Below, one piece after another: positions 4,583-34,732 of a stretch of DNA of 36,001 nt (position 1 is its first letter; every line of letters begins with the position of its first letter). Both the position numbers and the translations under genes were made by a program. Below the pieces are notes generated by a model. That model was not told the origin of the DNA and did no database searches. It saw only the letters and a list, made by a program, of their open reading frames with translations. Source of the stretch: an uncultured Bacteroidota bacterium (GTDB lineage: Bacteria > Bacteroidota > Bacteroidia > Bacteroidales > 4484-276); the NCBI GenBank assembly GCA_903944895.1, contig CAJATL010000062.1, positions 1-36,001 on the forward strand, given 5' to 3'.

Positions 4583-5950
4583 TCAAATCTCCGCATTCAG
4601 TTTGATAATCTTAAGCCGTGGCGAGGTTTTAATATAGCTCCGGATAATCGAATGAACATCCTTACACTCTGGAAATGGTTTTACCGCCGAGCAAAGATAT
4701 TCCGCCGCATCGTAGCCGTTAATTTCCTTGCTGGCAAAGCCAAAGCCGATGTAGCGGCCATGTTCAACTTTTACTACAGTACATTCGTCGTCGGTGCGGC
4801 CTTTATCAACCAGCAAAAAGCTGTCGTGGCTGTACTGATAATGTGAGATGATTTTTCCGGCACGGTGGTTGTAATCTTCGGGGCTTTCCTCGCAAATACA
4901 GGCGCCGTAACACTCCTTTATTTTGTATTGAAAACAGGAACTTTTAGTCTCGTAAAGTCCGCAGAGTTTCTGGCAAAGATGGTTTTCTTCGATGATTTCG
5001 TAAAGGAATTTTTTAGCAGCCATCCCCGAAGCAAAGGTCGTAAGCGGTGCTTCCTCCTCATTTTCGTCAAGGCGCGAAACATGAAGTCGGATATACCCAT
5101 TTTCGTCGGTATGATGAAAAAGGCCGAAATTATACATCGTACGTCGCTGAGCGCGGTTGTAAACGGGTTTGTGTTTTTTTATCTCGTTCGATTCGAGTAA
5201 AAGCGCCACAAGTTCGCTTCCGGTGATCTCAAAATCGATTTCGACAACACTGTTTTTCATTTCAAGGGCGCGTTTGGTGGTGCTGTTGGTGAGGTGCGAC
5301 ATCACCCGCGACTTGATGTTCCTGCTTTTCCCGACGTAGATAATTTCGTGTTTTTCGTTTAGGAAATAATACACCCCGGTTTCTTCGGGCAGGTTTTTGA
5401 CAAATTCAGGTTTCAGGCTGCTGTTGAATCCCTGGGTGGAGATTCCTGCAGGGTTAGGCTCGATGGAAAGCAACATCCCGAAAAGTGTTGCCGTGGCCTT
5501 TGCGTCGCCCATGGCGCGGTGACGGTGCGGGTTTTCGATGTTGAGGTCGGTGCAAAGATTACCCAGGCTGTACGACCGCTTCATAGGGATAAGTTTGCGG
5601 CTCAACTTAACTGTGCAAAGCTTTTCACGCACAAAATCGTAACCCAGATTTTTAAATTCCTGCCGGATAAAATTATAATCGAAACTAACATTGTGAGCCA
5701 CAAAAATCTGGTCTTCGGTCATTTCGACAATTTTCTTTGCAACTTCATAAAACTTCGGGGCATCGTCAACCATGCGGTTTGTAATGCCGGTGAGTTGCTG
5801 AATAAAATAAGGTATTTTTTGCTCTGGATTAATGAGCGTACTAAACTCATCAACAACCTGCCGGCCGTCGTGTATCAAAATGGCAATCTCTGTAATTTTA
5901 CCATTCAGATAGCTTGTCCCCGTAGTCTCGATATCAATTATTGCGTACAT
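4583..5950 (-). CDS. DnaQ-like exonuclease / GIY-YIG endonuclease fusion
   Basis: 455 residues in two nuclease parts. Residues 1-165 are a DEDDh 3'-5' exonuclease like the DNA polymerase III epsilon chain: D6 and E8 in IDIETTG, D91 in HNVSFDYNF, and H144 and D149 in HRAMGDAKAT. Residues 188-270 are a GIY-YIG domain as in UvrC and Cho: GVYYF at 192-196, IIYVGKS at 203-209, R211-type arginine after it, and SNEIKKHKPVYN further on. The C-terminal part carries the cysteine pattern LCQKLCGL then CFQYKIKECYGAC seen in Cho-like proteins. The family is known as exonuclease domain proteins with a UvrC-like half and is thought to act in repair, cutting 3' of lesions. It stands alone; the neighbouring S24 regulator and dinB make a repair neighbourhood plausible. 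Confidence 0.88.
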   Translation of the reverse strand: MYAIIDIETTGTSYLNGKITEIAILIHDGRQVVDEFSTLINPEQKIPYFIQQLTGITNRMVDDAPKFYEVAKKIVEMTEDQIFVAHNVSFDYNFIRQEFKNLGYDFVREKLCTVKLSRKLIPMKRSYSLGNLCTDLNIENPHRHRAMGDAKATATLFGMLLSIEPNPAGISTQGFNSSLKPEFVKNLPEETGVYYFLNEKHEIIYVGKSRNIKSRVMSHLTNSTTKRALEMKNSVVEIDFEITGSELVALLLESNEIKKHKPVYNRAQRRTMYNFGLFHHTDENGYIRLHVSRLDENEEEAPLTTFASGMAAKKFLYEIIEENHLCQKLCGLYETKSSCFQYKIKECYGACICEESPEDYNHRAGKIISHYQYSHDSFLLVDKGRTDDECTVVKVEHGRYIGFGFASKEINGYDAAEYLCSAVKPFPECKDVHSIIRSYIKTSPRLKIIKLNAEI

Positions 5951-6839: not shown

Positions 6840-7360
6840 GGTGAAAAAGTTTTTTTTTAGTTTCTCATTTTCAATTTACATCGTTTCATTTCGCAGAGCG
6901 CAGAGCGCATGGAGCAGAGCGAAATACACAGACAGGTTTAATCCATTCCTCATTCTTCATCAAATTATTTATCAACAATTCTTTGTTCAGAACATCAGCA
7001 TGATTATATTGTAGTCGTTAATAAGATTAAATATTAGTCAAAGGTAATATGAATTTTTGAAAAAGCAAGAAAAAAGTCAGGAAAAATGAGACAATTCGAC
7101 AATTCGACAATTGGAAAGATGGAAAAATGGAATGTTGAGGCGTTAGACGAAATCCCGCTATGGCGGGAGAAAAATGGAAGAGTGGAATGATGGAAGAATT
7201 CGACCCCCGATAGCTATCGGGGCGGCAATGGAAGAATGGAAGACTTCAGACTGCCCACTGCCAACTGGCGACTGGCGACTGCCAACGTTGGACTTACGCC
7301 TTACGCCTTACGACTGCCAACTGCCCACTTCCGTCTTCCGGCTATAAACTGAGAAAAAAA
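6840..7360. other. Intergenic region between the S24 regulator and dinB, filled with simple repeats and hairpins
   Basis: 521 bases with no supported gene. It holds runs of GGAAAGATGG-like and GACAATTC words (about 7089-7200), a hairpin TCCCGC/GCGGGA with loop TATG at 7153-7168, the perfect 18-bp palindrome at 7205-7222, and a tract of CTGCCAACTG, GGCGACTG and TTACGCC words (about 7249-7340). Any dinB promoter is hidden among these; I find no TAnnTTTG box in the last 60 bases. Confidence 0.7.
7205..7222. repeat. Perfect 18-bp palindrome (CCCGATAGCTATCGGG type)
   Basis: CCCCGATAGCTATCGGGG reads the same on both strands. The same 16-base centre recurs at 27114-27129 and in imperfect form near 30275 and 31700, so it is a dispersed element of this genome rather than a local operator. 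Confidence 0.9.
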
Positions 7361-8590
7361 ATGCAAACCGATAACCGCACAATCGTACATCTGGACCTCG
7401 ACACATTTTTTGTATCGGTGGAACGGCTGATGAACAGCAGCCTGGTGGGCAAGCCTGTAATTATTGGCGGCACCTCCGACCGTGGCGTGGTGGCCAGTTG
7501 CAGCTACGAAGCCCGCCAGTTTGGGGTGAGTTCGGCCATGCCCATGAAAATGGCGCTCAACCTTTGCAACGACGCCATCATCATCCGCGGCGACATGGAG
7601 CAATACTCCAAATATTCGCGCATGGTAACCGACATCATCGCCGAGCAGGCGCCCGTTTACGAAAAAGCCTCCATTGACGAGCATTACCTCGACATCACCG
7701 GCATGGACCGTTTTTTTGGTTCGCTCAAATGGACACACGAACTGCGGCAGCGCATCATCAGCCAAACGGGGCTACCCATTTCGCTGGGACTTTCGGTAAA
7801 CAAAACGGTTTCGAAAATTGCCACAGGCGAGGCCAAGCCCAACGGCGAAATTCAGGTCGAAAAGCAGCGGGTAATGCCTTTCCTCGGGCCGCTTTCGATC
7901 CGTAAAATTCCCATGATCGGCACAAAAACCTTCCAGTTGCTGCGTTCGATGGGCGTGGTGAACATCCATACTTTGAGCATGATCCCGCCCGAAATGATGG
8001 AAAAACTGATGGGCAAAAACGGTCTCGACATCTGGAAAAAAGCCAACGGCATCGACCATACACCGGTTGTGCCTTATTCCGAACAAAAATCCATCAGCAC
8101 CGAAACCACCTTCGAACAGGACACCATCGAAGTGGTGCGCATGCGCGAAATCCTCAGCTCGATGGTCGAAAAAATTGCCTTTCAGATGCGTAAAAAAGGA
8201 AAACTCACGGGCTGTGTCACGGTTAAAATCCGCTACTCCAACTTCGACACACACACCCTGCAAAAAACCATTCCTTATACCTCTTTCGACCATGTGCTTA
8301 CCAAAATTGCGCTGGAACTGTTCGACAAACTTTACCAGCGTCGTATGCTGATCCGCTTGATTGGCGTGCGTTTCAGTCATTTGGTAAGCGGTATGCAGCA
8401 ACTCAATCTTTTCGACGATACCCCCGAAATGATCAACCTGTACCAAGCCATGGATCGCATCCGCCTGCGTTTTGGAGCAAAAGCCATCCGCCACGCTGTG
8501 TCGCTGATGCCCGGAGATGCAGGAGGAAAGGCTGCCGCCAATAAACAAAAACTGCTCTACCGCGAGTTGAGGGACATTGATGAGTTGTAG
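7361..8590 (+). CDS. dinB: DNA polymerase IV (Y-family translesion polymerase)
   Basis: 409 residues, a usual length for DinB. Metal-binding residues are visible: D12 in HLDLDTF, and D106 and E107 in SIDEHYLD. The steric-gate position is F17. A helix-hairpin-helix thumb follows (IRKIPMIGTKTFQLLRSMGVVNIHTL), then the little-finger domain (KSISTETTFEQDT, VTVKIRYSNFDTHTLQKTI). It copies past damaged DNA with low fidelity. The C-terminus, after NLFDD, has a Bacteroidota-type tail rather than a clean beta-clamp motif; NLFDD (residues about 350-354) resembles the QLxLF clamp-binding motif (QQLNLFDD). It is divergent from the LexA-like S24 regulator, a likely controller. Codon use is GC-rich compared with its neighbours. 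Confidence 0.96.
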   Translation: MQTDNRTIVHLDLDTFFVSVERLMNSSLVGKPVIIGGTSDRGVVASCSYEARQFGVSSAMPMKMALNLCNDAIIIRGDMEQYSKYSRMVTDIIAEQAPVYEKASIDEHYLDITGMDRFFGSLKWTHELRQRIISQTGLPISLGLSVNKTVSKIATGEAKPNGEIQVEKQRVMPFLGPLSIRKIPMIGTKTFQLLRSMGVVNIHTLSMIPPEMMEKLMGKNGLDIWKKANGIDHTPVVPYSEQKSISTETTFEQDTIEVVRMREILSSMVEKIAFQMRKKGKLTGCVTVKIRYSNFDTHTLQKTIPYTSFDHVLTKIALELFDKLYQRRMLIRLIGVRFSHLVSGMQQLNLFDDTPEMINLYQAMDRIRLRFGAKAIRHAVSLMPGDAGGKAAANKQKLLYRELRDIDEL

Positions 8591-25481: not shown

Positions 25482-26837
25482 ATGAAAACGAAAAAAGGAA
25501 TCAAACCGTCCAACACTATGATTTCTGTGCCTGTTGTTAATCCTCATGCAGCTGGGATAGACCTGGGCAGTAAAAGTCATTTTGTTTGTGTAGCACAAGA
25601 CAATGTAAAGGAATTTGGTGTCTTTACTACTGATTTACATGTTATTGCTCATCATTTACAAGACCATCAAGTACTAACTGTTGCAATTGAATCCACTGGA
25701 TTTTACTGGCGCCCTTTGTATTTAATGCTTTTAGACTATGGTTTTGAAGTAACTTTGGTTAATGCCCGTCATTTGAAAAATGTAAAAGGGCATAAAACCG
25801 ATGTAGTGGACAGCAAATGGTTACAATTTCTACAAAGTATTGGCCTGCTTTCAAACAGTTTTCAGCCTGATGCTTTTACACATGAATTGAGGGTACTTAC
25901 CCGCCATCGCAAAAGCTTGATAGAAGATGCAAGTCGTTTTATCGCAAAGATGAATAAAATATTGGTATTAATGAACATCCAATTGCATGTTGTTTTGCGA
26001 GATATTACCGGGCAGTCTGGCTTAAAGGTCATAGAAGCCATATTGAAAGGGGAAAGAGATGCAAAAAAGTTAACAGCGTTGGTTAGTGTCAGGGTTAAAG
26101 CAACAAGAGAAAACATAGAAAAAGCTTTAACCGGAGACTTTAGAAAAGAATATCTTTTTGAACTTAGCCAGTGCTATCAACTCTACATGGTTTATTGGCA
26201 AAAAATAGAGGAAACAGATATTCAAATCGAAGAACTTCTAAAACTTAGTGTTGGCCAAACACCGGTTAACAATAAATACAAGTCTCCCAAAAACAAGCAA
26301 TATCAGAAAAACGACCCTAATTTCAATGTTGGTCGTTATGCATACCAAATGAGTGGTGGTGTTGAATTACTTGCCATAAATGGTGTTGGCTCTGCAACTA
26401 TCTTAACGTTAATTTCAGAAACCGGGCTTGATCTGTCTATGTTCAAAACAGCCAAGCATTTTGCATCTTGGCTTGGCTTTGCCCCAAACCGAAAAATTAC
26501 CGGTGGGAAAGTGATTTCTTCTCATACCCGTAAAAAAACAAATCCATTAGCCAAAGTTATTCGTGACGCAGCAAATGCAGCAGGAAATAGCAAAAGTCGA
26601 TTAGGCGATTTTTTTCGACATCTGGCATTTCGAAAAGGCAGAATGGTTGCCATTGGAGCCACTTCAAGAAAAATAGCTGTGATAATCTATAAAATGCTCA
26701 TGGAAGGCAATGAATTTAGCTATGAGTATGATGAGCAAGAAACCCAACATGTAAGAAACAACAAAATTAAAAACATTGTCAAAACGTTGAAAAAGTACAG
26801 TATTTCAAAGAACGAATTGGAATTAGCGTTGGGTTAA
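25482..26837 (+). CDS. IS110-family transposase (DEDD recombinase)
   Basis: 451 residues, intact. The N-terminal RuvC-like domain shows the DEDD set: D27 in AGIDLGSKSHF, E70 in VAIESTGFYW, and D107 and D110 in GHKTDVVDSKW. The C-terminal Transposase_20 domain has the helix-hairpin-helix LLAINGVGSATILTLISETG, then FASWLGFAPNRKITGGKV and ending in a conserved ATSRKIAVIIYKML. A middle helical segment (about residues 130-250) is a coiled-coil connector. IS110 enzymes move circular DNA with an RNA guide and need no terminal repeats. A non-coding leader upstream fits the IS110 (not IS1111) arrangement. It sits just after nuoN without disrupting it. Confidence 0.93.
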   Translation: MKTKKGIKPSNTMISVPVVNPHAAGIDLGSKSHFVCVAQDNVKEFGVFTTDLHVIAHHLQDHQVLTVAIESTGFYWRPLYLMLLDYGFEVTLVNARHLKNVKGHKTDVVDSKWLQFLQSIGLLSNSFQPDAFTHELRVLTRHRKSLIEDASRFIAKMNKILVLMNIQLHVVLRDITGQSGLKVIEAILKGERDAKKLTALVSVRVKATRENIEKALTGDFRKEYLFELSQCYQLYMVYWQKIEETDIQIEELLKLSVGQTPVNNKYKSPKNKQYQKNDPNFNVGRYAYQMSGGVELLAINGVGSATILTLISETGLDLSMFKTAKHFASWLGFAPNRKITGGKVISSHTRKKTNPLAKVIRDAANAAGNSKSRLGDFFRHLAFRKGRMVAIGATSRKIAVIIYKMLMEGNEFSYEYDEQETQHVRNNKIKNIVKTLKKYSISKNELELALG

Positions 26838-27085
26838 ACAGGTACTAATTCCATAAGTATTAAGCTGCATTTCAACTGGAAAAACTCCAGTAAGAAATGT
26901 ATTGTCGCAACTCATAAGACCTGGTTATATGTGAGTTAAGGATTTGAACGCTGATAACGCTGATGCAAGCAGCGCTGATTTTCGCGGATTTCTTGTATCA
27001 TAAACTGTTTTGATCCGCGTTCCATTTTATATTTGTTAACTAAACGACGTTGATTCTACATTGGTCATTCTACAACACCCCGGCT
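26838..27085. other. 3' flank of the IS110 with a hairpin and widespread intergenic words
   Basis: A hairpin ACTGGA/TCCAGT (26875-26891) lies 38 bases after the transposase stop. From about 26943 come the words ACGCTGAT repeated, then CGCGGATT and GATCCGCG, an intergenic pattern common in this phylum. The right end of the IS110 is probably between these two, but I cannot place it. Confidence 0.5.
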
Positions 27086-27202
27086 AAGCGGCATTTGTAA
27101 TGCCGCTTTGAATCCCGATAGCTATCGGGATTGAATTTGTAATTCGAAACCAACCATTAAGTTTCGTCAGTCAAGATTTATTTGGACAATTGCAAATTGT
27201 CC
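27086..27202. repeat. Modular hairpin repeat, copy 1
   Basis: Order: hairpin H1 (arms AAGCGGC/GCCGCTT, centre ATTTGTAAT at 27093-27101), the 18-bp palindrome TCCCGATAGCTATCGGGA (27113-27130), hairpin H2 (arms TTGA/TCGA, centre ATTTGTAAT at 27135-27143), a 39-base linker containing GTTTCGTCAGTCAAGATT, and hairpin H3 (arms GGACA/TGTCC, centre ATTGCAAAT at 27189-27197). This is the cleanest copy. Confidence 0.9.
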
Positions 27203-27209
27203 CCAGGCT

Positions 27210-27372
27210 AAGCGGCATTTGTAATGCCGCTTTGATTCCCGATCAAGATAGCTAACTAGGGATTGGGATTAAATTTGTAATTCGACAAAATACATTATGT
27301 TTCGTCAGTCAAGATTTATTTGGACAATTGCAAATTGTCCGGTGTTGTGAGCGGCATTGCAAATGCCGCTCA
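27210..27372. repeat. Modular hairpin repeat, copy 2
   Basis: Same order as copy 1, seven bases later: H1 27210-27232, a decayed palindrome with a short insertion, H2 centre at 27273-27281 with poor arms, the linker, H3 27322-27340, and in addition H4 with 8-bp arms TGAGCGGC/GCCGCTCA around ATTGCAAAT (27348-27372). Confidence 0.9.
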
Positions 27373-27399
27373 GCATGAGACGCTGTCAGGTGCCCGGCT

Positions 27400-27446
27400 A
27401 AGCGGCATTTGTAATGCCGCTTTGAGCTTTCTTTAATTTGTAATTC
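27400..27446. repeat. Modular hairpin repeat, copy 3 (partial: H1 and H2 only)
   Basis: H1 27400-27422 is identical to copies 1 and 2. The H2 centre ATTTGTAAT (27436-27444) is present but its arms are weak. Palindrome, linker and H3 are absent. Confidence 0.85.
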
Positions 27447-27540
27447 AATAAAAATGGTTTGTGTGATAAGAATTTTCGATGTTCATTTCAACCAATTTTG
27501 GCTGAATGAATTGTCCATCGGAAACCATTTCCTAAAACAG

Positions 27541-27627
27541 TAACTCCACTTGAGTAAATGATAACTATCGTTTGAGTAAATGGTAACTACCACTTGGGTA
27601 AATGGTAACTACCACTTGAGTAAATGG
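27541..27627. repeat. Tandem array of four 21-22 bp units
   Basis: Units start at 27541, 27562, 27584 and 27606 and follow the pattern TAACTACCACTTGAGTAAATGG, with changes mainly in the first half; only the first is 21 bases. As RNA from the minus strand a unit can pair CCAUUU with AAGUGG using one G-U pair. Confidence 0.88.
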
Positions 27628-27638
27628 TTTCATAAGCT

Positions 27639-27734
27639 AAGCGGCATTTGCAATGCCGCTTTGAACATTGTTGAATTTGTAATTCAACAACTTGTCCGGT
27701 GTCGCGAGCGGTCAGCCAGTTGGTGGACCGCTCA
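27639..27734. repeat. Modular hairpin repeat, copy 4 (linker deleted)
   Basis: H1 27639-27661 has centre ATTTGCAAT. H2 has perfect 7-bp arms TTGTTGA/TCAACAA around ATTTGTAAT (27668-27690). The linker and left half of H3 are deleted. H4 keeps arms GAGCGGTC/GACCGCTC (27706-27733) but its centre is replaced by AGCCAGTTGGTG. Confidence 0.85.
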
Positions 27735-27772
27735 GCGTGATGGTATTAAAATTCTCTCCTGTCACATTCAAA

Positions 27773-27834
27773 AATGTCTCAAGTGATAAAAAAAATGTCT
27801 CAAGTGACATTTGAGAATGTCACAGGTGACATTT
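27773..27834. repeat. Array of AATGTC...GACATT mini-hairpins
   Basis: AAATGTC/GACATTT around TCAAGT (27793-27812) and AATGTCA/TGACATT around CAGG (27816-27833), preceded by a half copy AATGTCTCAAGTGA at 27773. The words recur at 30511-30580. Confidence 0.85.
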
Positions 27835-27908
27835 TGACCAATGATTACTAAATTCTCAGGAAATTAAGCTGGCATCTGATATTCCGGCATTTTTTAAAAT
27901 CCTCAGCT

Positions 27909-28048
27909 AAGCGGCCCGCCAACTGGCGGACCGCTTTTAACAATGTTGAATTTGCAATTCGATACAATAGATTATGTTTCGTCAGTAAAGTATTATTCGC
28001 ACCATTACAAATTGTTTAATATTCCAGGCTGCATTGCAAATGCCGCTC
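27909..28048. repeat. Modular hairpin repeat, copy 5 (centre exchanged in H1)
   Basis: H1 keeps arms AAGCGG/CCGCTT (27909-27936) but the centre is the palindromic CCCGCCAACTGGCGGA. H2 centre is ATTTGCAAT (27950-27958). The linker is diverged, H3 is decayed (ATTACAAAT at 28004-28012), and H4 centre ATTGCAAAT is at 28033-28041 with one damaged arm. Confidence 0.82.
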
Positions 28049-28069
28049 AGCATGGGCAAATAACCAGTT

Positions 28070-30139
28070 TTATTGCTTTACAAACTTTGAGGTAACTGAT
28101 CCATGTTCATTCGCCAGTTTAATGATATAAACACCGGATTTGAGATTTCTAATGTCGATGGTTGATGTCGTATTAACGGTTTCGGTCTTGTAAACCAGGG
28201 TACCGAAAAGGTGATAAACCGCTATCATGCTATCATGTTCTGATTGAACCGTAATAAAGTCGGTTGCGGGATTTGGAAATACGGAAAACGACTGAATATC
28301 GTGATCAGACACTGAGTTTATTGATGAAGTTAAGCCGTACCCAAAAGGGAATAAAGGATTATACGGATTGTCGCCAAGATTGATTGGCTCCTGAGAAATA
28401 GTGGATGGCCAGGTATGCGACAGTTTTCCGGTGAACCTATAATCGCCAAACAAAACATCGGTGATGCCTAAGGCTTCGGTTCCTGGTAACCAACAGGCAA
28501 CAAAAGCATCTGCATCAGCAATAACATCGGTTACTAACATCGGACGTCCACTAATTAGTAATACTACATAAGGAATATTTAATTCTTTGACCTTTTGAAT
28601 GATATTTAGTTCGGCAGTAGTCAACTGAGGATTGGGTGAATCACCCTGTCCTTCGGCATAAGGTGTTTCACCGACAACCACAATAGCAAAATTTACTGAG
28701 GCAGTGGTTGTACCATTAGCGGAATAAATCACATTTGCCGATCCACGGGCACTTTTAACAGCATTAAGTATGGTTGTGCCTGTTGTAATCTGGCCAGTAC
28801 TGCCCTGCCATGAAATTGTCCATCCTCCGCATTGTGAACCGATTTCGTTTGCTTTTGTACCAGCTACCAGAATTTTGCCGCTTGTTTTTGAAAGAGGAAG
28901 CAAATCACCTTCGTTTTTTAAAAGCACAATCGATTTTCTAACTGCTTCACGGGCTATATTCCGGTGGTTTTCGTTTCCAAGGCTGTCAGCCATTGCCATG
29001 GATGCAAATCGTCTTTCAAAAAGGTGCATCCTGAATTTTACAGCGAGGATTCTTTTGACGGCATCATCAATCCGGCTCATGGGAACCATACCTGCATTTA
29101 CCAGTTCTTTAAGATTTGTTATGAATTCGATTGGTCTGGTAGGTTCCATAAACATATCAATGCCGGCATTTACCGAAATTTTGATCGCAGTCTTAAAATC
29201 ATCCGAAAGGTATTTAACTCCTTCCCAATCAGAAACCACAAAACCATCAAAACCAAGTTCACCTTTTAATAAGTCGGTAATCAGGTAAGCATGACCATGA
29301 CATAAGGCCCCATTCCAACTGTTAAAGGAAACCATGACTGATCCGACACCGGAATTAATAGCTGCAATATATCCGGGTAAATGAATTCGCCGCAAATCAG
29401 TTTCAGTAAGTATCGTATTGCCGGCATTGGTACCATATTCGGTACCACCATCGCCAATAAAATGTTTGGCGCAGGCCAAAATACGGTAAGGTGAGCCTGT
29501 TGAATCTCCCTGATAACCAGTTACAGCGGCTCTTGCCATCACCTGCTGTAATTCCGGAGTTTCTCCAAAACCCTCGTAAGTTCTTCCCCAACGGATATCT
29601 CTGGGAACAGCGATGCACGGACTAAAAGTCCAGTTCAAACCAACCGCTGCAACTTCTATGGCGGTTGCCTGGGCACACTGTTTTACTAAAACTGTATCTC
29701 TGGTGCATCCCAAACCAATATTGTGTGGAAAAATGGTTGCACCAAAAACGTTATTATTTCCATGAACGGCGTCAATTCCATAAATGATCGGGATTTTCAG
29801 CCGTGTTGTATTGGCTGAATTTTGCATTCCATTATACATATTTACCCAGCTTGTTGCAGAATTATTCCCGGGAACGCTCCCTCCACCACTCAGGATTGAT
29901 CCCAGGTAATAGTCCTTGATTACTGCATTGACATTTTCAAAATTTCGCTCTGTCTGTACCATCTGCCCGATTTTTTCATCCAGATTCATTCTTCCGATCA
30001 AATCATTAACCCTTTCGTTAACGGAGGCTGTACTATCCAGGTAAATCTGTGAATATCCGCCTAACGGACTGATCGTTAATACTACAAAGTAAAACAGAAC
30101 TTGTACAGATCCGAAAACATAAGGTTTTCTATTTTTCAT
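28070..30139 (-). CDS. Secreted GH3 glycoside hydrolase with T9SS sorting domain
   Basis: 689 residues. A signal peptide occupies about residues 1-30. The GH3 N-terminal barrel runs from about 35 to 370: GRMNLDEKIGQMVQ, the substrate motif KHFIGDGG (225-232), and nucleophile D304 in GFVVSDWEGV. The GH3 C-terminal sandwich covers about 395-600 (SIVLLKNEGDLLPL, IVVVGETPYAEGQGD). A type A T9SS sorting domain ends the protein (SVFPNPATDF, then LKSGVYIIKLANEHGSVTSKFVKQ). GH3 members are mostly beta-glucosidases or xylosidases; the exact sugar is unknown. It should be exported by Sec and attached or released by the type IX system. No polysaccharide-utilisation genes (SusC/SusD) adjoin it; it stands alone between modular repeats. 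Confidence 0.94.
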   Translation of the reverse strand: MKNRKPYVFGSVQVLFYFVVLTISPLGGYSQIYLDSTASVNERVNDLIGRMNLDEKIGQMVQTERNFENVNAVIKDYYLGSILSGGGSVPGNNSATSWVNMYNGMQNSANTTRLKIPIIYGIDAVHGNNNVFGATIFPHNIGLGCTRDTVLVKQCAQATAIEVAAVGLNWTFSPCIAVPRDIRWGRTYEGFGETPELQQVMARAAVTGYQGDSTGSPYRILACAKHFIGDGGTEYGTNAGNTILTETDLRRIHLPGYIAAINSGVGSVMVSFNSWNGALCHGHAYLITDLLKGELGFDGFVVSDWEGVKYLSDDFKTAIKISVNAGIDMFMEPTRPIEFITNLKELVNAGMVPMSRIDDAVKRILAVKFRMHLFERRFASMAMADSLGNENHRNIAREAVRKSIVLLKNEGDLLPLSKTSGKILVAGTKANEIGSQCGGWTISWQGSTGQITTGTTILNAVKSARGSANVIYSANGTTTASVNFAIVVVGETPYAEGQGDSPNPQLTTAELNIIQKVKELNIPYVVLLISGRPMLVTDVIADADAFVACWLPGTEALGITDVLFGDYRFTGKLSHTWPSTISQEPINLGDNPYNPLFPFGYGLTSSINSVSDHDIQSFSVFPNPATDFITVQSEHDSMIAVYHLFGTLVYKTETVNTTSTIDIRNLKSGVYIIKLANEHGSVTSKFVKQ

Positions 30140-30216
30140 AAAACTTTGAATTAGAATTTCCTACAAAGTAACAATATTTTTAATCGCGATAAATATCTAT
30201 TTGTAATCCCAGGAAT

Positions 30217-30368
30217 AGCGGCCCCGGGCCCGCTAACTGGCGGACCGCTCTGATTCCCGATTCCGACCCGGATAGCTATCGGGATCGGAATCGGGATTGA
30301 ATTTGTATTTCGACACAATACATTATTTTTATTCAGTTAACTATTATTTGGACAAATGCAAATTGTCC
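30217..30368. repeat. Modular hairpin repeat, copy 6, with a 42-bp palindrome
   Basis: H1 has the exchanged centre (AGCGG arms around CCGCTAACTGGCGGA-like sequence). The CCCGATAGCTATCGGG part is extended to a 42-bp imperfect palindrome at 30255-30296 (19 of 21 pairs). H2 is ATTTGTATT, the linker is diverged, and H3 (30350-30368) keeps arms GGACA/TGTCC around AATGCAAAT. Confidence 0.82.
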
Positions 30369-30510
30369 AATGTTAATAGTAATCCGGCGGCGTTCGACGG
30401 AGCTCATGCCGAGGTCTGGCGGGCCACTCAACGGGGGTATCCAAAAATCACACTATCGACGGAATAAACACTCTCGATGCCTGAAGAATTTTGCCTGTGC
30501 TTTCTTTACA

Positions 30511-30580
30511 GCAAGTGAATAAAAAATGCATCAAGTGACATTTCCAAATACCTCAGGTGACATTTTATTTTTCACTTGAG
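30511..30580. repeat. Second array of CAAGTGACATT words
   Basis: GCAAGTGAATAAAA, ATGCATCAAGTGACATTT, ATACCTCAGGTGACATTTT and a final inverted TTCACTTGAG lie about 20-22 bases apart, matching the array at 27773-27834. Confidence 0.8.
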
Positions 30581-30623
30581 ATAATTTCTGGAAGCTTTGA
30601 TACTAATTCGCTGGAATATCCTA

Positions 30624-31571
30624 TTAATTTTTCTGAATCAAATTCACGATTACTTTAACCAGCATTTCTTTGTCGATAGGGTTGCTCTCGGCCAGCATCA
30701 GGGTTAAAGCTACAAGCGTGTTGTTATCAATGATTTTGGTGCCGTAATCGTTGAATAAAATTTTGTTTTTATGCAGGAAATAAATAAACAAAGCTGCGGC
30801 AATGCGTTTGTTCCCGTCAACAAACGAATGGTTTTTGGTGGTGAAATATAAAAGATTGGCAGCCTTAATTTCCGGTGAAGGATACAATTCGACACCATCA
30901 AAGGTTTGATAAATCGCAGCTACTGAGCTTTCAAGAGATTTGTCTTTTTCCTTACCAAACAAATCGCTCCCACCAAACTTCTGCTTCATCGAAACCACTA
31001 ATTGACGTACTTCTTCGACGGTAATTTGCTCCGATTTGCCTGCAGATGTCGGTATTTCGAGTTGCTGATGGTCGTATTTATCAAGTATTTCGAGCGCATA
31101 ATTATAGTCGGTAATGACGTTGAGCAACCCAACCGCCTCTTCTTTTTCGAGTGCTTTGCCTTCGGTTATCCTGCCAATGAATTTAACAATGTTAGCCAGT
31201 TCCAATTGGGCATTTTTACTATTAACCGATTCGAGTAATTTTTCCTTTAAAACTCTGGTAGCCCAAATACGGAACTGGGTGCCACGTAACGATTTTACCC
31301 TGTAGCCAACAGAAATAATTACATCGAGGTTAAATAGTTTAGTTAAATAGTTTTTTCCATCAGATGCAGTTGTCAAGGATTCCTTGACAACTGAATTCTG
31401 CGATAATTCTTTCTCTCTGAAAATGTTATTGATGTGTAAACTAATATTCTGTTTTGTCTGATTAAACAGCAGAGCCATTTGCTGTTGAGTAAGCCAAACT
31501 GTGTCTTTTTCGAACTCAACTTCTATTACAATTTTATTGTCCGGTGCAATGTATTTTACAATTTCATTCAT
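30624..31571 (-). CDS. RhuM-type protein with C-terminal Fic/Doc domain
   Basis: 315 residues in two parts. Residues 1-170 match the RhuM virulence-protein family: VWLTQQQMALLFNQTKQNISLHINNIF near 25-51 (a DNA-binding-like helical start) and NLDVIISVGYRVKSLRGTQFRIWAT at 81-105. Residues about 180-315 are a Fic/Doc fold with the active motif HSFVDGNKR (H248, F250, D252, K255, R256). Doc-type enzymes transfer phosphate or AMP onto targets such as EF-Tu; the NKR ending (rather than NGR) points to the Doc side, where phosphorylation is possible. No antitoxin gene is adjacent, so the RhuM half may restrain or target the Fic half. It lies between repeat copies 6 and 7 in the accessory zone. The domain calls are firm; the activity is an inference. 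Confidence 0.9.
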   Translation of the reverse strand: MNEIVKYIAPDNKIVIEVEFEKDTVWLTQQQMALLFNQTKQNISLHINNIFREKELSQNSVVKESLTTASDGKNYLTKLFNLDVIISVGYRVKSLRGTQFRIWATRVLKEKLLESVNSKNAQLELANIVKFIGRITEGKALEKEEAVGLLNVITDYNYALEILDKYDHQQLEIPTSAGKSEQITVEEVRQLVVSMKQKFGGSDLFGKEKDKSLESSVAAIYQTFDGVELYPSPEIKAANLLYFTTKNHSFVDGNKRIAAALFIYFLHKNKILFNDYGTKIIDNNTLVALTLMLAESNPIDKEMLVKVIVNLIQKN

Positions 31572-31588
31572 TTTGCAAAATTTGTAGG

Positions 31589-31596
31589 CAAAAATA
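31589..31596 (-). promoter_or_regulatory. Candidate Bacteroidota -7 box for the RhuM-Fic gene
   Basis: The minus strand reads TATTTTTG 18 bases before the ATG, with TTGG about 20 bases further upstream as a weak -33 candidate. The 5' leader would be only about 10 bases. Confidence 0.38.
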
Positions 31597-31650
31597 GTCT
31601 TTTAAACCTTTGGTAACCAATAGCGAAGAAACCATTGCCGGAATCGCGCT

Positions 31651-31832
31651 GGCTAATTGGCCAACCCACTGGCTGACTGCTTTAATTCCCGATTCCGTTC
31701 CCGATAGCTGTCCGGATCGGAACCGGGATTGAATTTGCATTTCGACACGAAACATTAAGTTTCGTCAGTCAAGATTTATTTGGACAATTGCAAATTGCCC
31801 GGTATTGTGAGCAGCATTGCAAATGCTGCTCA
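31651..31832. repeat. Modular hairpin repeat, copy 7
   Basis: A decayed H1 with CCAACCCACTGGCTGA-like centre, a decayed 42-base palindrome at 31687-31728, H2, the linker with GTTTCGTCAGTCAAGATT, H3 at 31782-31800 (arms GGACA/TGCCC, one mismatch), and H4 at 31808-31832 with perfect 8-bp arms TGAGCAGC/GCTGCTCA. H4 differs from copy 2 by one paired G-C to A-T change. Confidence 0.88.
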
Positions 31833-31855
31833 GCGTTTATTAATCATCCCGACTA

Positions 31856-31953
31856 AGCGGCATAACAAATGCCGCTCTGTTTATTGTGGAATTTGTAATT
31901 CAACACCATACATTTAGTTTCGTCAGTCAAGATTTATTTGGACAATTACAAAT
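31856..31953. repeat. Modular hairpin repeat, copy 8
   Basis: H1 keeps arms AGCGGC/GCCGCT around ATAACAAAT (31856-31876), the opposite orientation of the centre from copies 1-4. H2 centre ATTTGTAAT at 31891-31899 has one arm mismatch. The linker is intact. H3 has lost its right arm after ATTACAAAT (31945-31953). Confidence 0.85.
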
Positions 31954-32025
31954 CCCCCTCAGCTTGCGAACCTTCATGATTTCCACTGAAGTTCCGGGTT
32001 AATCATCCCATTCCTTCAAATAAAC

Positions 32026-32033
32026 TATTTTTG
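32026..32033 (+). promoter_or_regulatory. Candidate Bacteroidota -7 box for the T9SS protein gene
   Basis: TATTTTTG followed by CAGC is a strong TAnnTTTG match. It would give a leader of about 150 bases to the chosen start at 32192, or about 32 bases to the first in-frame ATG at 32072. Confidence 0.5.
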
Positions 32034-32191
32034 CAGCAAAAGTACCGATTTGCAAATCAACACCTTTCTTTTTGGCCATTGCTACAGATTTGATTTACTG
32101 GAATTACAAAATGCAACAGAAGAAAATAACCTTTACGGAAAATGATCAGGTTCAGCCCAAAATGTTCTTTGCAACGATATTTGGGATGAAT

Positions 32192-34732
32192 ATGAAAAGG
32201 TTTGCCTTTTCTGTAATGGTCATGTTGTTTTTTTTATCTGTTCCAAAAGGGAGTTTTACCCAGGTAACCAGAGATACCGGCGAAGTTTTTATCGAAATTT
32301 CAAACATCATCTCAGCAATGCCGGGCAACAGCGGTAACAATTATTCCGCACCAGCTCTACCTGAACTTACAACCTGGGGACATTCATTAAGCTTTGTTTT
32401 AGACGGAAATTATGAGCAGGCCGATGATTCACTGGCAAAAATAGGATATGACGTTGTTCAGTTTCTGGATACTTCCGGAGCCGTAAATACAACCTATTTT
32501 ATGATGAAAAGCAATGGCATCAACTTTTGGGGAACCTATGTTTACAACCCCAATTACTGCAGGGCTTTGGTGATCCAATCGCCTCATGCTAAAAACGAAA
32601 TTAATACAGGCAAACAAGGGATACATATTTTCGAAAAAACACAGGCGATGTTCTTTAGTATGTGCGGAACGAGCAGATGCAATAATTTGGCCTATTCGGG
32701 TTGCAGCGGCGTAACCGCAGTATGTTCGGATATTCCGGAAAATTACAGGATTTCAGATCCTCCTCACAACATTTCCACAATTTTTCAGAGCACCACAGAT
32801 ACATTATTTAACCGGTTTCCAACCAGTATTTTTATTCAATTGCACGGCTTTACAAAGTTGGCAACCGATCCTTATGCCATCGTCAGTAACGGGACACAGC
32901 TAACCCCAGAACCGGATTACATCGTTCCTTTGGTTACCAATTTGTTTAGCGAAGACACAACGCTTACCTTTAAAATTGCCCATGTTGACCTGAATTGGGG
33001 CAGGTTAAGGGCTTTCGATAATACGCAGGGCAGGCTTATTAATTCCAGTCCGGATGCGTGTGGTTCAAATGCGGCAACTACCAATGGAAGGTTCATTCAT
33101 ATCGAGCAGGAAAGAACAAAACTCAGGGAAAATCAGGCGGCATGGGATAAAATGGCCAACGCGGTTAACAATACTTTTACCAGCTACCCGATTGTTTGGG
33201 AAGGTACAACAAGTTCAGACTGGAATACTGCGTCCAACTGGAGAAATGGAAGCGTTCCGGCTGCAACCGATAATATTTCCGTTGCCAGGGGTAGAAATGT
33301 TTTGGTTATCAACGAATCGCCCGAAGCACCGGCAGCATGTATGCATCTGGAAATCCAAAGCGGAGCCACGGTAACGATAAATGCAGGAATGGCATTGACT
33401 GTTAATGGCGACCTCAAAAATTCGGGAAACCTTACATTGCTGTCAATTCCGGATGCTTCGGCATCTTTAATTGTTTATGGAACCGTAAGTGGCAATGCAA
33501 ATGTAGGGCGCTACATTGCCGGGTACAGCGATGCACTTCATGGCTGGCATCTGTTATCTTCTCCGGTGGCTTCACAGGAAATCAGTTCATTTCATACGGC
33601 AGGTTCAGGAAACGATTTTCTAAAATGGGATGAAGCCAATATTAAATGGGTAAACAGGACAGCTCCGGATGGTGGAATAAACGGCGATTTTGAAACTGAA
33701 TTTTCACCAGGAACTGGTTATATGATTGCCAACACCGGTAACAGTACACAAATCTTTTCGGGAGTTCCGAATAATTCGGATATCAGTTTTTCGGGACTTA
33801 GTTTTACGGGAGCTTCAACACATTCAGGCTGGCATTTGCTGGGTAATCCTTTTCCCAGTGCTTTAATCTGGAACAAAACAGCATGGAATTTGTCCAACGT
33901 TGATGCAACAGCCAAATTATGGCAGGAAAGCACCGCCAGTTACCTCGATATTGAGCCCGTAACCGGGATAATTCCTGCGATGCAGGGATTTTTCGTACAT
34001 GTTAACCAATCAATGGGCACGTTAACGATTGATGCCAGCGACCGCACGCACAACCCACAGAACTGGTATAAAAATACCGGTGAAAATGAATTGAAATTAA
34101 CGGTTTACGATACCGAAGGCGGTACTTCGCAGGAAAGCATCATAAAGGTAGTTGAGGGATCAACAGTTGGTTTTGATGATGCCTTTGATTCGTGGTTTAT
34201 GGCTGGTCACGCTCCGTTGTTTTATTCAAAGGTTCCGGAAGGATTTCTTTCGACCAACGCTTTGCCGGAACTGACACAGGAAACAACCATACCGTTGTCT
34301 TTTAACAAAAATACTTCTTCCTCTTTTTACATCGAGGTAAAAGGTGTCAACACACTTATTCCTCAAAAGGCTGTTTATTTAACAGATATCAAAACCAGGC
34401 AAACACAATTGCTTAACGATTATCCGGTGTATTGGTTTGCCGCTGAGGAAGACGATATTACCGAAAGATTTGTTATTCACTTTAAGTCTTCCAATAATGA
34501 ATTTGCACACCAGGTAAATATTTTTGAAGCAAGAAATGGCATCGAAATACGAAGCAGCAAGCCAATTACAGGAAAAACCGATATTTTTGATGTTTCGGGG
34601 CGGTTAATCAAAAGCCAGCTCATCGCAAATTCGATCAATGTTTCGGTGGATTTATCCGGTTTCAGAGGTTTCGCAGTAGTTTCGGTAATTACATCAGATG
34701 AGGTTTTTACTAAAAAAGTAGTTGTCTGGTAA
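32192..34732 (+). CDS. Large T9SS-secreted protein of unknown function
   Basis: I choose the ATG at 32192 (846 residues) because it opens a proper signal peptide (KRFAFSVMVMLFFLSVPKGSFTQ); the longer frame from 32072 adds 40 residues without signal character. Residues about 30-360 form a compact domain with three histidine motifs, SPHAKNEINTG (H132), DPPHNISTIFQ (H192) and FIQLHGF (H218), and four cysteines at 158, 163, 171 and 178 that may form disulfides. The pattern suggests a metal-dependent hydrolase, but I do not recognise a family. After WEGTTSSDWNTASNW (about 380) come beta-rich segments typical of cell-surface proteins. The last 70 residues are a type A T9SS sorting domain (IFDVSGRLIKSQ, then LSGFRGFAVVSV and a basic end). 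It is probably surface-exposed or released. Confidence 0.75.
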   Translation: MKRFAFSVMVMLFFLSVPKGSFTQVTRDTGEVFIEISNIISAMPGNSGNNYSAPALPELTTWGHSLSFVLDGNYEQADDSLAKIGYDVVQFLDTSGAVNTTYFMMKSNGINFWGTYVYNPNYCRALVIQSPHAKNEINTGKQGIHIFEKTQAMFFSMCGTSRCNNLAYSGCSGVTAVCSDIPENYRISDPPHNISTIFQSTTDTLFNRFPTSIFIQLHGFTKLATDPYAIVSNGTQLTPEPDYIVPLVTNLFSEDTTLTFKIAHVDLNWGRLRAFDNTQGRLINSSPDACGSNAATTNGRFIHIEQERTKLRENQAAWDKMANAVNNTFTSYPIVWEGTTSSDWNTASNWRNGSVPAATDNISVARGRNVLVINESPEAPAACMHLEIQSGATVTINAGMALTVNGDLKNSGNLTLLSIPDASASLIVYGTVSGNANVGRYIAGYSDALHGWHLLSSPVASQEISSFHTAGSGNDFLKWDEANIKWVNRTAPDGGINGDFETEFSPGTGYMIANTGNSTQIFSGVPNNSDISFSGLSFTGASTHSGWHLLGNPFPSALIWNKTAWNLSNVDATAKLWQESTASYLDIEPVTGIIPAMQGFFVHVNQSMGTLTIDASDRTHNPQNWYKNTGENELKLTVYDTEGGTSQESIIKVVEGSTVGFDDAFDSWFMAGHAPLFYSKVPEGFLSTNALPELTQETTIPLSFNKNTSSSFYIEVKGVNTLIPQKAVYLTDIKTRQTQLLNDYPVYWFAAEEDDITERFVIHFKSSNNEFAHQVNIFEARNGIEIRSSKPITGKTDIFDVSGRLIKSQLIANSINVSVDLSGFRGFAVVSVITSDEVFTKKVVVW

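Follow-up and report, generated by a model that had tools for sequence, protein, structure and literature searches.

Eight hairpin units in three intergenic gaps

We analysed a 36,001-nucleotide stretch of DNA (hereafter the window; positions 1 to 36,001 of contig CAJATL010000062.1, assembly GCA_903944895.1) from the genome of an uncultured Bacteroidota bacterium of the order Bacteroidales (7.17 Mb in 424 contigs, 96% complete). Eight related units built of hairpins can be read from the sequence across three intergenic gaps (27083-28051, 30217-30368 and 31652-31953), and the genes neighbouring these gaps encode an IS110 transposase, a GH3 enzyme, a RhuM-Fic protein and a long protein whose match to a type IX secretion system (T9SS) tail lies below cut-off. 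It is highly probable that the units are non-autonomous elements of the repetitive extragenic palindromic (REP)/REPIN kind, which belong to a REP-associated tyrosine transposase (RAYT) encoded on contig C82 of the same genome and would spread in trans.

A complete unit begins with a GCT foot, followed by an outer hairpin (H1), an inner hairpin (H2), a linker, another inner hairpin (H3), another outer hairpin (H4) and the mirror foot AGC. Each unit end is a pair of hairpins with centres 29 nt apart, and the two ends face each other (H1-H2 against H3-H4), which is the inverted, spacer-separated arrangement of REPINs in doubled form. The outer hairpin consists of the GCT foot, a stem of 10-11 bp and a TGY triloop, and the inner hairpin is shorter; these triloop hairpins have the common tip ATT-TGY-AAT, and their arms are set by position in the unit (H1 to H4). 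A single hairpin type, viewed from its two ends, gives both H1 and H4, AAGCGGC and TGAGCGGC being the same outer type. The initial annotation was right that the arms differ, but since H4 repeats H1 in mirror image the arm types number three (one outer, two inner) and not at least four unrelated ones. All four hairpin positions are kept in three units (27207-27374, 27906-28051 and 31652-31834), with H1 altered in two of them. The alteration is a swapped tip, in which the outer arms AGCGG/CCGCT enclose a GC-rich, CCGCCAACTGGCGG-type tip; it is present at 27705-27736, 27906-27937, 30217-30249 and 31652-31682, with the exact form at 27916. Since the exact tip CCGCCARYTGGCGG has 58 genome copies of its own, compared with 0 for the control, it seems that a GC-rich repeat has taken the place of another repeat's tip or has inserted into it. 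The units and the genes beside them are as follows.

27083-27202, + strand: unit 1; GCT foot and H1 at 27083-27108, palindrome at 27113-27130, H2 at about 27135, linker with GTTTCGTCAGTCAAGATT, H3 at 27184-27202, no H4
27207-27374, + strand: unit 2, with four hairpins; H1 at 27207-27232, degenerate palindrome, H2 at about 27273, linker, H3 at 27322-27340, H4 and AGC at 27348-27374; fold z -6.8
27397-27447, + strand: unit 3; only H1 at 27397-27422 and a weakly paired H2 at about 27436
27636-27736, + strand: unit 4; H1 at 27636-27661, H2 at 27668-27690 (centres 29 nt apart), swapped-tip outer hairpin at 27705-27736; no linker or H3
27906-28051, + strand: unit 5; swapped-tip outer hairpin at 27906-27937, H2 at about 27950, linker, decayed H3 at about 28004, partly decayed H4 at about 28033
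30217-30368, + strand: unit 6; swapped-tip outer hairpin at 30217-30249, long palindrome at 30255-30296, mutated-tip H2 at about 30301, linker, H3 at 30350-30368
31652-31834, + strand: unit 7; swapped-tip outer hairpin at 31652-31682, palindrome, mutated-tip H2 at about 31733, linker, H3 at 31782-31800, H4 at 31808-31834 with the compensated arm change GAGCAGC/GCTGCTC
31852-31953, + strand: unit 8; mutated-tip H1 at 31852-31877, H2 at about 31891, linker, truncated H3, H4 lost
25482-26837, + strand: IS110-family transposase, a neighbour and not the source of the units
28070-30139, - strand: GH3 enzyme with a Por secretion tail, a neighbour
30624-31571, - strand: RhuM-Fic protein, a neighbour

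Folded as single-stranded DNA with DNA parameters, the unit stands far above shuffled sequences (z -8.3 for the C82 unit and -6.8 for the window unit at 27207-27374); the predicted fold has either separate hairpins or H1 paired with H4.

The initial annotation described a hairpin family with a constant centre, ATTTGYAAT or its complement ATTRCAAAT, confined to this part of the window. The second point stood, as did the count of eight units: of the 20 such sites in the window, 18 are inside the units (27093-31945), and the feature is restricted to this region because at the other two (9618 and 30199) the arms do not pair at any base. The arms had also been described as fully complementary, and intact copies are indeed perfectly paired over 5-8 bp beyond ATT/AAT, but decayed copies (for example those at 28004 and 31945) are incompletely paired. 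Likewise, the proposed fixed order is seen for H1, H2, linker, H3 and H4 in full units, whereas the palindrome, which had been counted into it, is a separate repeat that some units do not contain. This palindrome, CCCGATAGCTATCGGG, stands between H1 and H2 in some units; it has 108 exact genome copies (reversed control, 0), among them those at window 27114-27129 and 7206-7221, on C82 and on many other contigs. Genomes of the order that matched the palindrome only numbered 21, and a RAYT occurs in 6 of them, about as frequently as elsewhere (p 0.40). Given its own 108 copies, its absence from some units and this background RAYT frequency, we rejected the palindrome as a part of the unit.

A RAYT gene framed by the same hairpins

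A search of the own genome for Y1 transposases returned six genes, the weakest match of which, on contig C82, sits amid unit copies. The gene (C82:5004-5573) is intact, encodes 189 amino acids and is bracketed by H1-H2 and H3-H4, whose foot and 29-nt spacing are those seen in the window; the window units look like this C82 element with a short linker substituted for the gene. The protein passes the NCBIfam RAYT model NF047646 (98.7 bits, cut-off 80) and fails the IS200/IS605 model NF033573 (22.6 bits, cut-off 55). The first structural match of its AlphaFold2 model (mean pLDDT 90) is 4er8, in which the RAYT of E. coli is complexed with a REP hairpin, and the model has an extra helix at residues 100-114. 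The HUH motif reads NHLH and the Y motif YIHNNP, at a distance of 85 when measured between the N of NHLH and the Y, and S164-S165 is invariant in 25 aligned sequences. The protein carries WT instead of WQ; a motif search of 70 homologues found WQ in 34, WT in 23 and neither in 13. The own genome has one close copy of the RAYT. The presence of the same hairpins around a RAYT gene in this genome supports the earlier suggestion of a hairpin-targeting or hairpin-copying process of the RAYT or IS200 type.

Other sources for the units were considered and rejected. The neighbouring IS110 element is not their source, since many copies lie on other contigs and a RAYT lies between copies on C82. The five other Y1 loci were discarded because own-tip sites there have at most one arm pair. 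Eight other Y1/RAYT-like loci of the genome together gave a single match to the hairpin rule defined below, with a different tip; at three of these loci there are other hairpins, at least 10 bp long.

As a separate observation, the RAYT- or Y1-like genes at G000:C343 (locus L039), C75 (L041) and C290 (L035) have their own long hairpins nearby (AGGGTTCCGAACCCT, AAACCTACCAGGT and CTGATCCCCGAAT), and because of this the own genome seems to host several RAYT-like hairpin systems.

Copies of the hairpins in the own genome

Across the genome the pattern ATTTGYAAT has 624 matches, compared with 188 for the reversed pattern, and is thus commoner than expected by chance. For arm pairing we used the first 97 of 100 listed sites, taken in contig order and blind to the arms, in 40 stretches totalling 231 kb. 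At least four perfect arm pairs were found at 16 of these 97 sites; the 9-mer alone is not the feature, because the remaining 81 have weaker arms or none. The same sample has 19 ATT-NNN-AAT sites whose arms form four or more perfect pairs, and the loop is TGY/RCA in 16 of them. A search with one unit gave 70 matches, some overlapping on opposite strands, and copies occur on many contigs as single hairpins, two-hairpin ends and full units.

A constant centre with arms that vary as pairs had been the main claim of the initial annotation. In the own genome it goes too far: the arms are fixed by position save for occasional paired changes, and some copies (27705, 27906, 30217 and 31652) change the centre while keeping the arms. 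A 110-row hairpin listing, in which the overlapping loci L146 and L004 are both included, contains such paired changes in H4 (GAGCGGC/GCCGCTC to GAGCAGC/GCTGCTC, at 31816), in H2 (GTTGA/TCAAC to GGTGA/TCACC, on contig C17) and in H1 (GCGGC/GCCGC to GCGGA/TCCGC, on contig C48). The claim holds, in a stronger form, across lineages.

A foot, stem and loop rule near RAYT relatives

Of 393 genomes of the order, the own genome counted, 80 have RAYT homologues at E 1e-20; in the family, 3 of 12 genomes have them at E 1e-10. We examined 500 nt on either side of 71 RAYT loci (70 distinct), nearly all from the same order; they are a non-random draw, comprising the 30 best matches of the search and 40 hand-picked further down the list. 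Locus L096 duplicates L062 and was kept in the triloop, orientation and identity counts but left out of the tip-tree and later counts, and L146, which overlaps L004, was left out of the own-genome foot and flank, letter-shuffle and stem-position counts.

Triloop hairpins of at least 7 bp numbered 169 near these loci, compared with a mean of 7.8 in dinucleotide shuffles, a control that is slightly low because it omits loci whose flank is no longer than 50 nt. Hairpins with four-base loops numbered 42 (6.9 in shuffles) and those with loops of 5-8 bases 8-13 (5.0-6.2). The loop was TNY or its complement RNA (degenerate base code) in 152 of the 169 triloop hairpins, and its orientation depended on the side of the gene: TNY outnumbered RNA upstream by 55 to 26, and RNA outnumbered TNY downstream by 52 to 19 (Fisher p 4e-7). 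Exactly 10 nt ahead of the loop, G[CT]T was present in 56 of 120 distinct TNY-oriented hairpins, from 31 of 46 loci (next best offset, 15; same distance on the 3' side, 1).

We then stated the rule as a G[CT]T foot, a stem in which 9 or more of the 10 positions pair (G-T allowed) and a TNY triloop. It describes 121 hairpins in 48 of the 69 loci besides C82, compared with 0.65 in letter shuffles, which preserve letter content only. A rule hairpin is thus found in 49 of 70 RAYT loci, and 29 of the 70 have rule hairpins on both gene sides, oriented as expected.

Fixed tip and variable outer stem

Among the distinct hairpins of one locus (26 loci, each having two or more distinct arms), arm identity from the loop outward was 0.85, 0.96, 0.85, 0.80, 0.53, 0.36 and 0.24, compared with 0.51, 0.50, 0.49, 0.38, 0.27, 0.28 and 0.32 between loci. 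Therefore, three to four tip pairs go with the RAYT and the outer pairs do not. The outer pairs are nonetheless pairs. When one hairpin per locus was taken from 49 loci, with only the five loop-side pairs, the foot and the loop type required, stem positions 6-10 were Watson-Crick paired in 93, 58, 74, 88 and 84%, compared with 40, 23, 27, 40 and 32% after partners had been dealt among loci. Positions 11-14, at 30, 23, 17 and 18%, were near the shuffle (30, 19, 17 and 24%). It therefore holds that the outer pairs vary yet covary across lineages. G-T pairs occupy stem positions 7 and 8 in 34 and 36 of 126 hairpins, respectively. The tip type changed 20 times on the RAYT tree (46 of 70 loci labelled), fewer than in any of 500 shuffles (mean 27.1, minimum 23).

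By analogy with the RAYTs of E. coli and Stenotrophomonas (PMC8266576), we infer that the C82 RAYT may bind, cut and move the units. The enzyme would recognise the hairpin in single-stranded form by its foot and tip while ignoring the letters of the outer arms, and would cut and rejoin beside the foot. It may measure the distance from tip to foot, as is suggested by the constant tip and the fixed 10-bp distance, and the outer stem would then be needed as a paired spacer; units without a gene would spread in trans. We tentatively extend this to a recognition code for the Bacteroidota RAYT clade, in which a G[CT]T foot lies 10 bp from a TNY triloop, the first three to four closing pairs may be read, and the outer pairs may be checked for pairing only; such a code, which we offer as a possibility short of probable, would be modular, unlike the foot-plus-bulge recognition of E. 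coli. Because each RAYT lineage has its own tip, tips and enzymes might be open to re-matching.

Specificity and distribution among genomes

In the own-genome sample, 15 of 16 rule matches have the ATT tip of the C82 RAYT, whereas three control feet gave 2-4 matches each. In the window, six of seven rule matches are inside units. A RAYT 59% identical to that of C82 is present in genome G011, together with a unit that has other tips; this unit gave 50 matches in G011 and 1 across nine other genomes searched. A RAYT-specific repeat family is thus seen in two cases, the own genome and G011.

Among genomes of the order, RAYTs were found in 15 of the 24 that match the hairpin parts of the C82 unit, compared with 79 of the 392 genomes that are left once the own one is set aside (p 3e-6); unit and palindrome genomes were sorted by hand according to query range, and the straddlers G106 and G259 were put under the palindrome. 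A scan of named genomes with the outer hairpin returned at least 109 stretches. Among the 80 listed, 77 are Bacteroidota by title, and the other three (Chloroflexi, Desulfobacteraceae and Elusimicrobia) may represent either binning error or transfer. Five of the 80 listed loci contain a RAYT of 55-74% identity, which lies between same-tip hairpins in four and is clipped by the locus edge in the fifth. Neighbouring hairpins less than 60 nt apart in the listed loci are spaced exactly 29 nt in 51 of 69 instances.

Ends, flanks and neighbouring sequence

In 52 outer hairpins of the own genome, selected by their arms, conservation begins at the GCT foot (50, 47 and 51 of 52). The GTAG/GTGG foot of canonical REPs is not found here, the foot being G[CT]T. 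In the flank, position -14 is uninformative, -15 is A or C in 43, and C occupies -16, -17 and -18 in 30, 35 and 38, respectively; beyond -19 the flanks are unrelated. This C-rich block recurs elsewhere in weaker form, -17 being C in 57 of 121 hairpins of other loci, and it could be either a target preference or a part of the element.

Upstream of the T9SS-type gene, the same-genus genome G003 has a unit at the place of unit 8, and because of this shared position the insertion of unit 8 predates the split from G003. The G003 unit keeps a changed-tip, H4-like end that is lost in the window. At one site, G003 diverges on the unit side and has no matching far flank. In G004, the gene adjoining the C82 RAYT has no rule hairpins as far as the contig end, about 0.3 kb beyond the gene.

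Further features were noted beside the units. A 22-nt tandem repeat, CCACTTGAGTAAATGGTAACTA, lies between units 3 and 4 (27546-27628). A GTCACTTGAGACATTT-type inverted spacer repeat adjoins units at window 27747-27835 and 30521-30566 and at about 5690-5760 of locus L037, upstream of the C82 RAYT. The RhuM-Fic gene of the window (30624-31571) and a KilA-N gene of C82 (L037 9875-10699) both adjoin units. In G003 (C343 and C79, compared with window 30620-31639), about 380 middle bases of the window copy of the RhuM-Fic gene are missing.

Origin of the units and alternative explanations

Several observations weigh against assigning the units to the C82 RAYT. No rule hairpin was found within 500 nt at 21 of 70 RAYT loci, and three control loops gave 4-7 matches in the own-genome sample, where the rule gave 16. 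One rule match in the window, at 8584, has a different tip and lies outside the units. RAYTs at E 1e-20 are missing from 9 of the 24 unit-matching genomes, and G003 (84% complete) has units with no RAYT found at E 1e-10. That the tip tracks the RAYT tree implies joint descent and is not by itself evidence of recognition. Finally, no clean empty site was found when 10.7 kb each of window and C82 sequence, plus selected stretches, were compared with seven family genomes.

The closest competing explanation is that of intact cassettes: the C82 element and the units would each move whole, as an IS200/IS605-like insertion sequence with gene-less derivatives (miniature inverted-repeat transposable elements, palindrome-associated elements or 'TIRtrons'), rather than as REPs of a resident, domesticated RAYT. 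The ends of the gene-less units do indeed also frame the gene, and the RAYT position is not common to the genomes in which it is visible: the gene adjoining the C82 RAYT has no rule hairpins nearby in G011 (3.5 kb). We nevertheless consider this explanation improbable, because the genome has one close RAYT copy, the protein is below the IS200/IS605 cut-off, and the ends face each other, as in the upstream and downstream loop counts. In IS200/IS605 elements, by comparison, the end hairpins lie on the same strand.

It is still less credible that the units are structured RNAs, as the initial annotation had offered, or transcription terminators or attenuators, retained for an RNA function. Their intergenic placement and strong folding, calculated with DNA parameters, would suit an RNA, and the covariation is also compatible with one; however, Rfam gave no match up to E 1 in 26800-32200, copies lie on many contigs singly, as two-hairpin ends and as full units, and both hairpin orientation and tip associate with the transposase gene. 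Least plausible of all, in our judgement, is that the units are binding sites of a nucleoid or regulatory host protein to which the RAYT link is secondary. REPs elsewhere do bind host proteins, according to the part of PMC6006769 consulted, but here the tips differ among lineages along the RAYT tree, and at 49 of 70 loci the RAYT has rule hairpins beside it. If a protein binds the tip in stem form, as had been proposed, the RAYT is likely to be the candidate. Taken together, we favour the units as REP/REPIN-like elements of the C82 RAYT.

Comparison with known systems

RAYTs occur in about a quarter of bacterial species (PMC6006769 and PMC8266576, in the parts consulted), and the kind of element reported here is known. 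No description of the foot, stem and tip rule was found in the open-access literature searched, and the consulted portions of PMC12306157 and PMC11194056 have no bearing on it; the recognition anatomy of the Bacteroidota RAYT clade therefore appears to be undescribed in that literature.

Like the units, the TIRtrons with their TIRYT genes (PMC3733652, consulted in part) have a RAYT-like gene between inverted repeats, some of them self-complementary, and gene-less copies; however, the text consulted gives no common rule of foot, stem and loop, and the TIRtron motif GGGGWSAS is absent from the ends described here. The CGTC-tagged REPs of the same source are also reported in Bacteroidetes, and the linker here includes CGTC. 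We rejected membership in that class as it is described there, since CGTC lies 15 nt ahead of H3 and is not a hairpin foot, the loops are of 3 nt and not 4-5 nt, and a transposase is present.

The RAYT/REP systems of E. coli, Stenotrophomonas and Marinomonas (PMC8266576, as far as consulted) resemble ours in that the hairpin is single-stranded DNA with a foot on its 5' side, each repeat family has one RAYT, and inverted pairs and gene-less copies occur; a further likeness is that loop positions are critical in RAYT group 3. Their foot is GTAG and is heavily read, whereas here it is G[CT]T and the fixed tip is prominent; E. coli REPs also have a required stem bulge. REPINs, as presented in the consulted text of PMC3116915, likewise spread as inverted hairpin pairs, but each end here has two hairpins with different arms, 29 nt apart.

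The closest relatives are the RAYTs of subclass 2.6, equivalent to Bertels group 5 and mostly from Bacteroidetes, whose genes, in the account of PMC6006769 available to us, are flanked by 'atypical secondary structures' that were found by eye, have no GT[AG]G and occur in copies elsewhere. The C82 RAYT resembles them in NHLH, YIHNNP, the SS behind the Y motif, its Bacteroidetes host (to which the T9SS genes and the named loci with the same hairpin also point), flanking hairpins without GT[AG]G and genome copies, and its HUH-Y distance of 85 is near their median of 82; it differs in having WT where WQ is listed. Recognition studies, judging from the sources consulted, cover two RAYT groups, the Bacteroidetes group having previously been only 'atypical' and spotted by eye. 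Here an explicit rule (G[CT]T, 10 bp, TNY), a tip for each lineage and a four-hairpin unit are given, whereas the main text of PMC6006769, in the part consulted, states no rule, although its Table S1 may list such hairpins. The rule finds the hairpins automatically, making a census, co-evolution with the enzyme and recognition in vitro testable, and it explains a class of intergenic repeats in many metagenome-derived Bacteroidota genomes.

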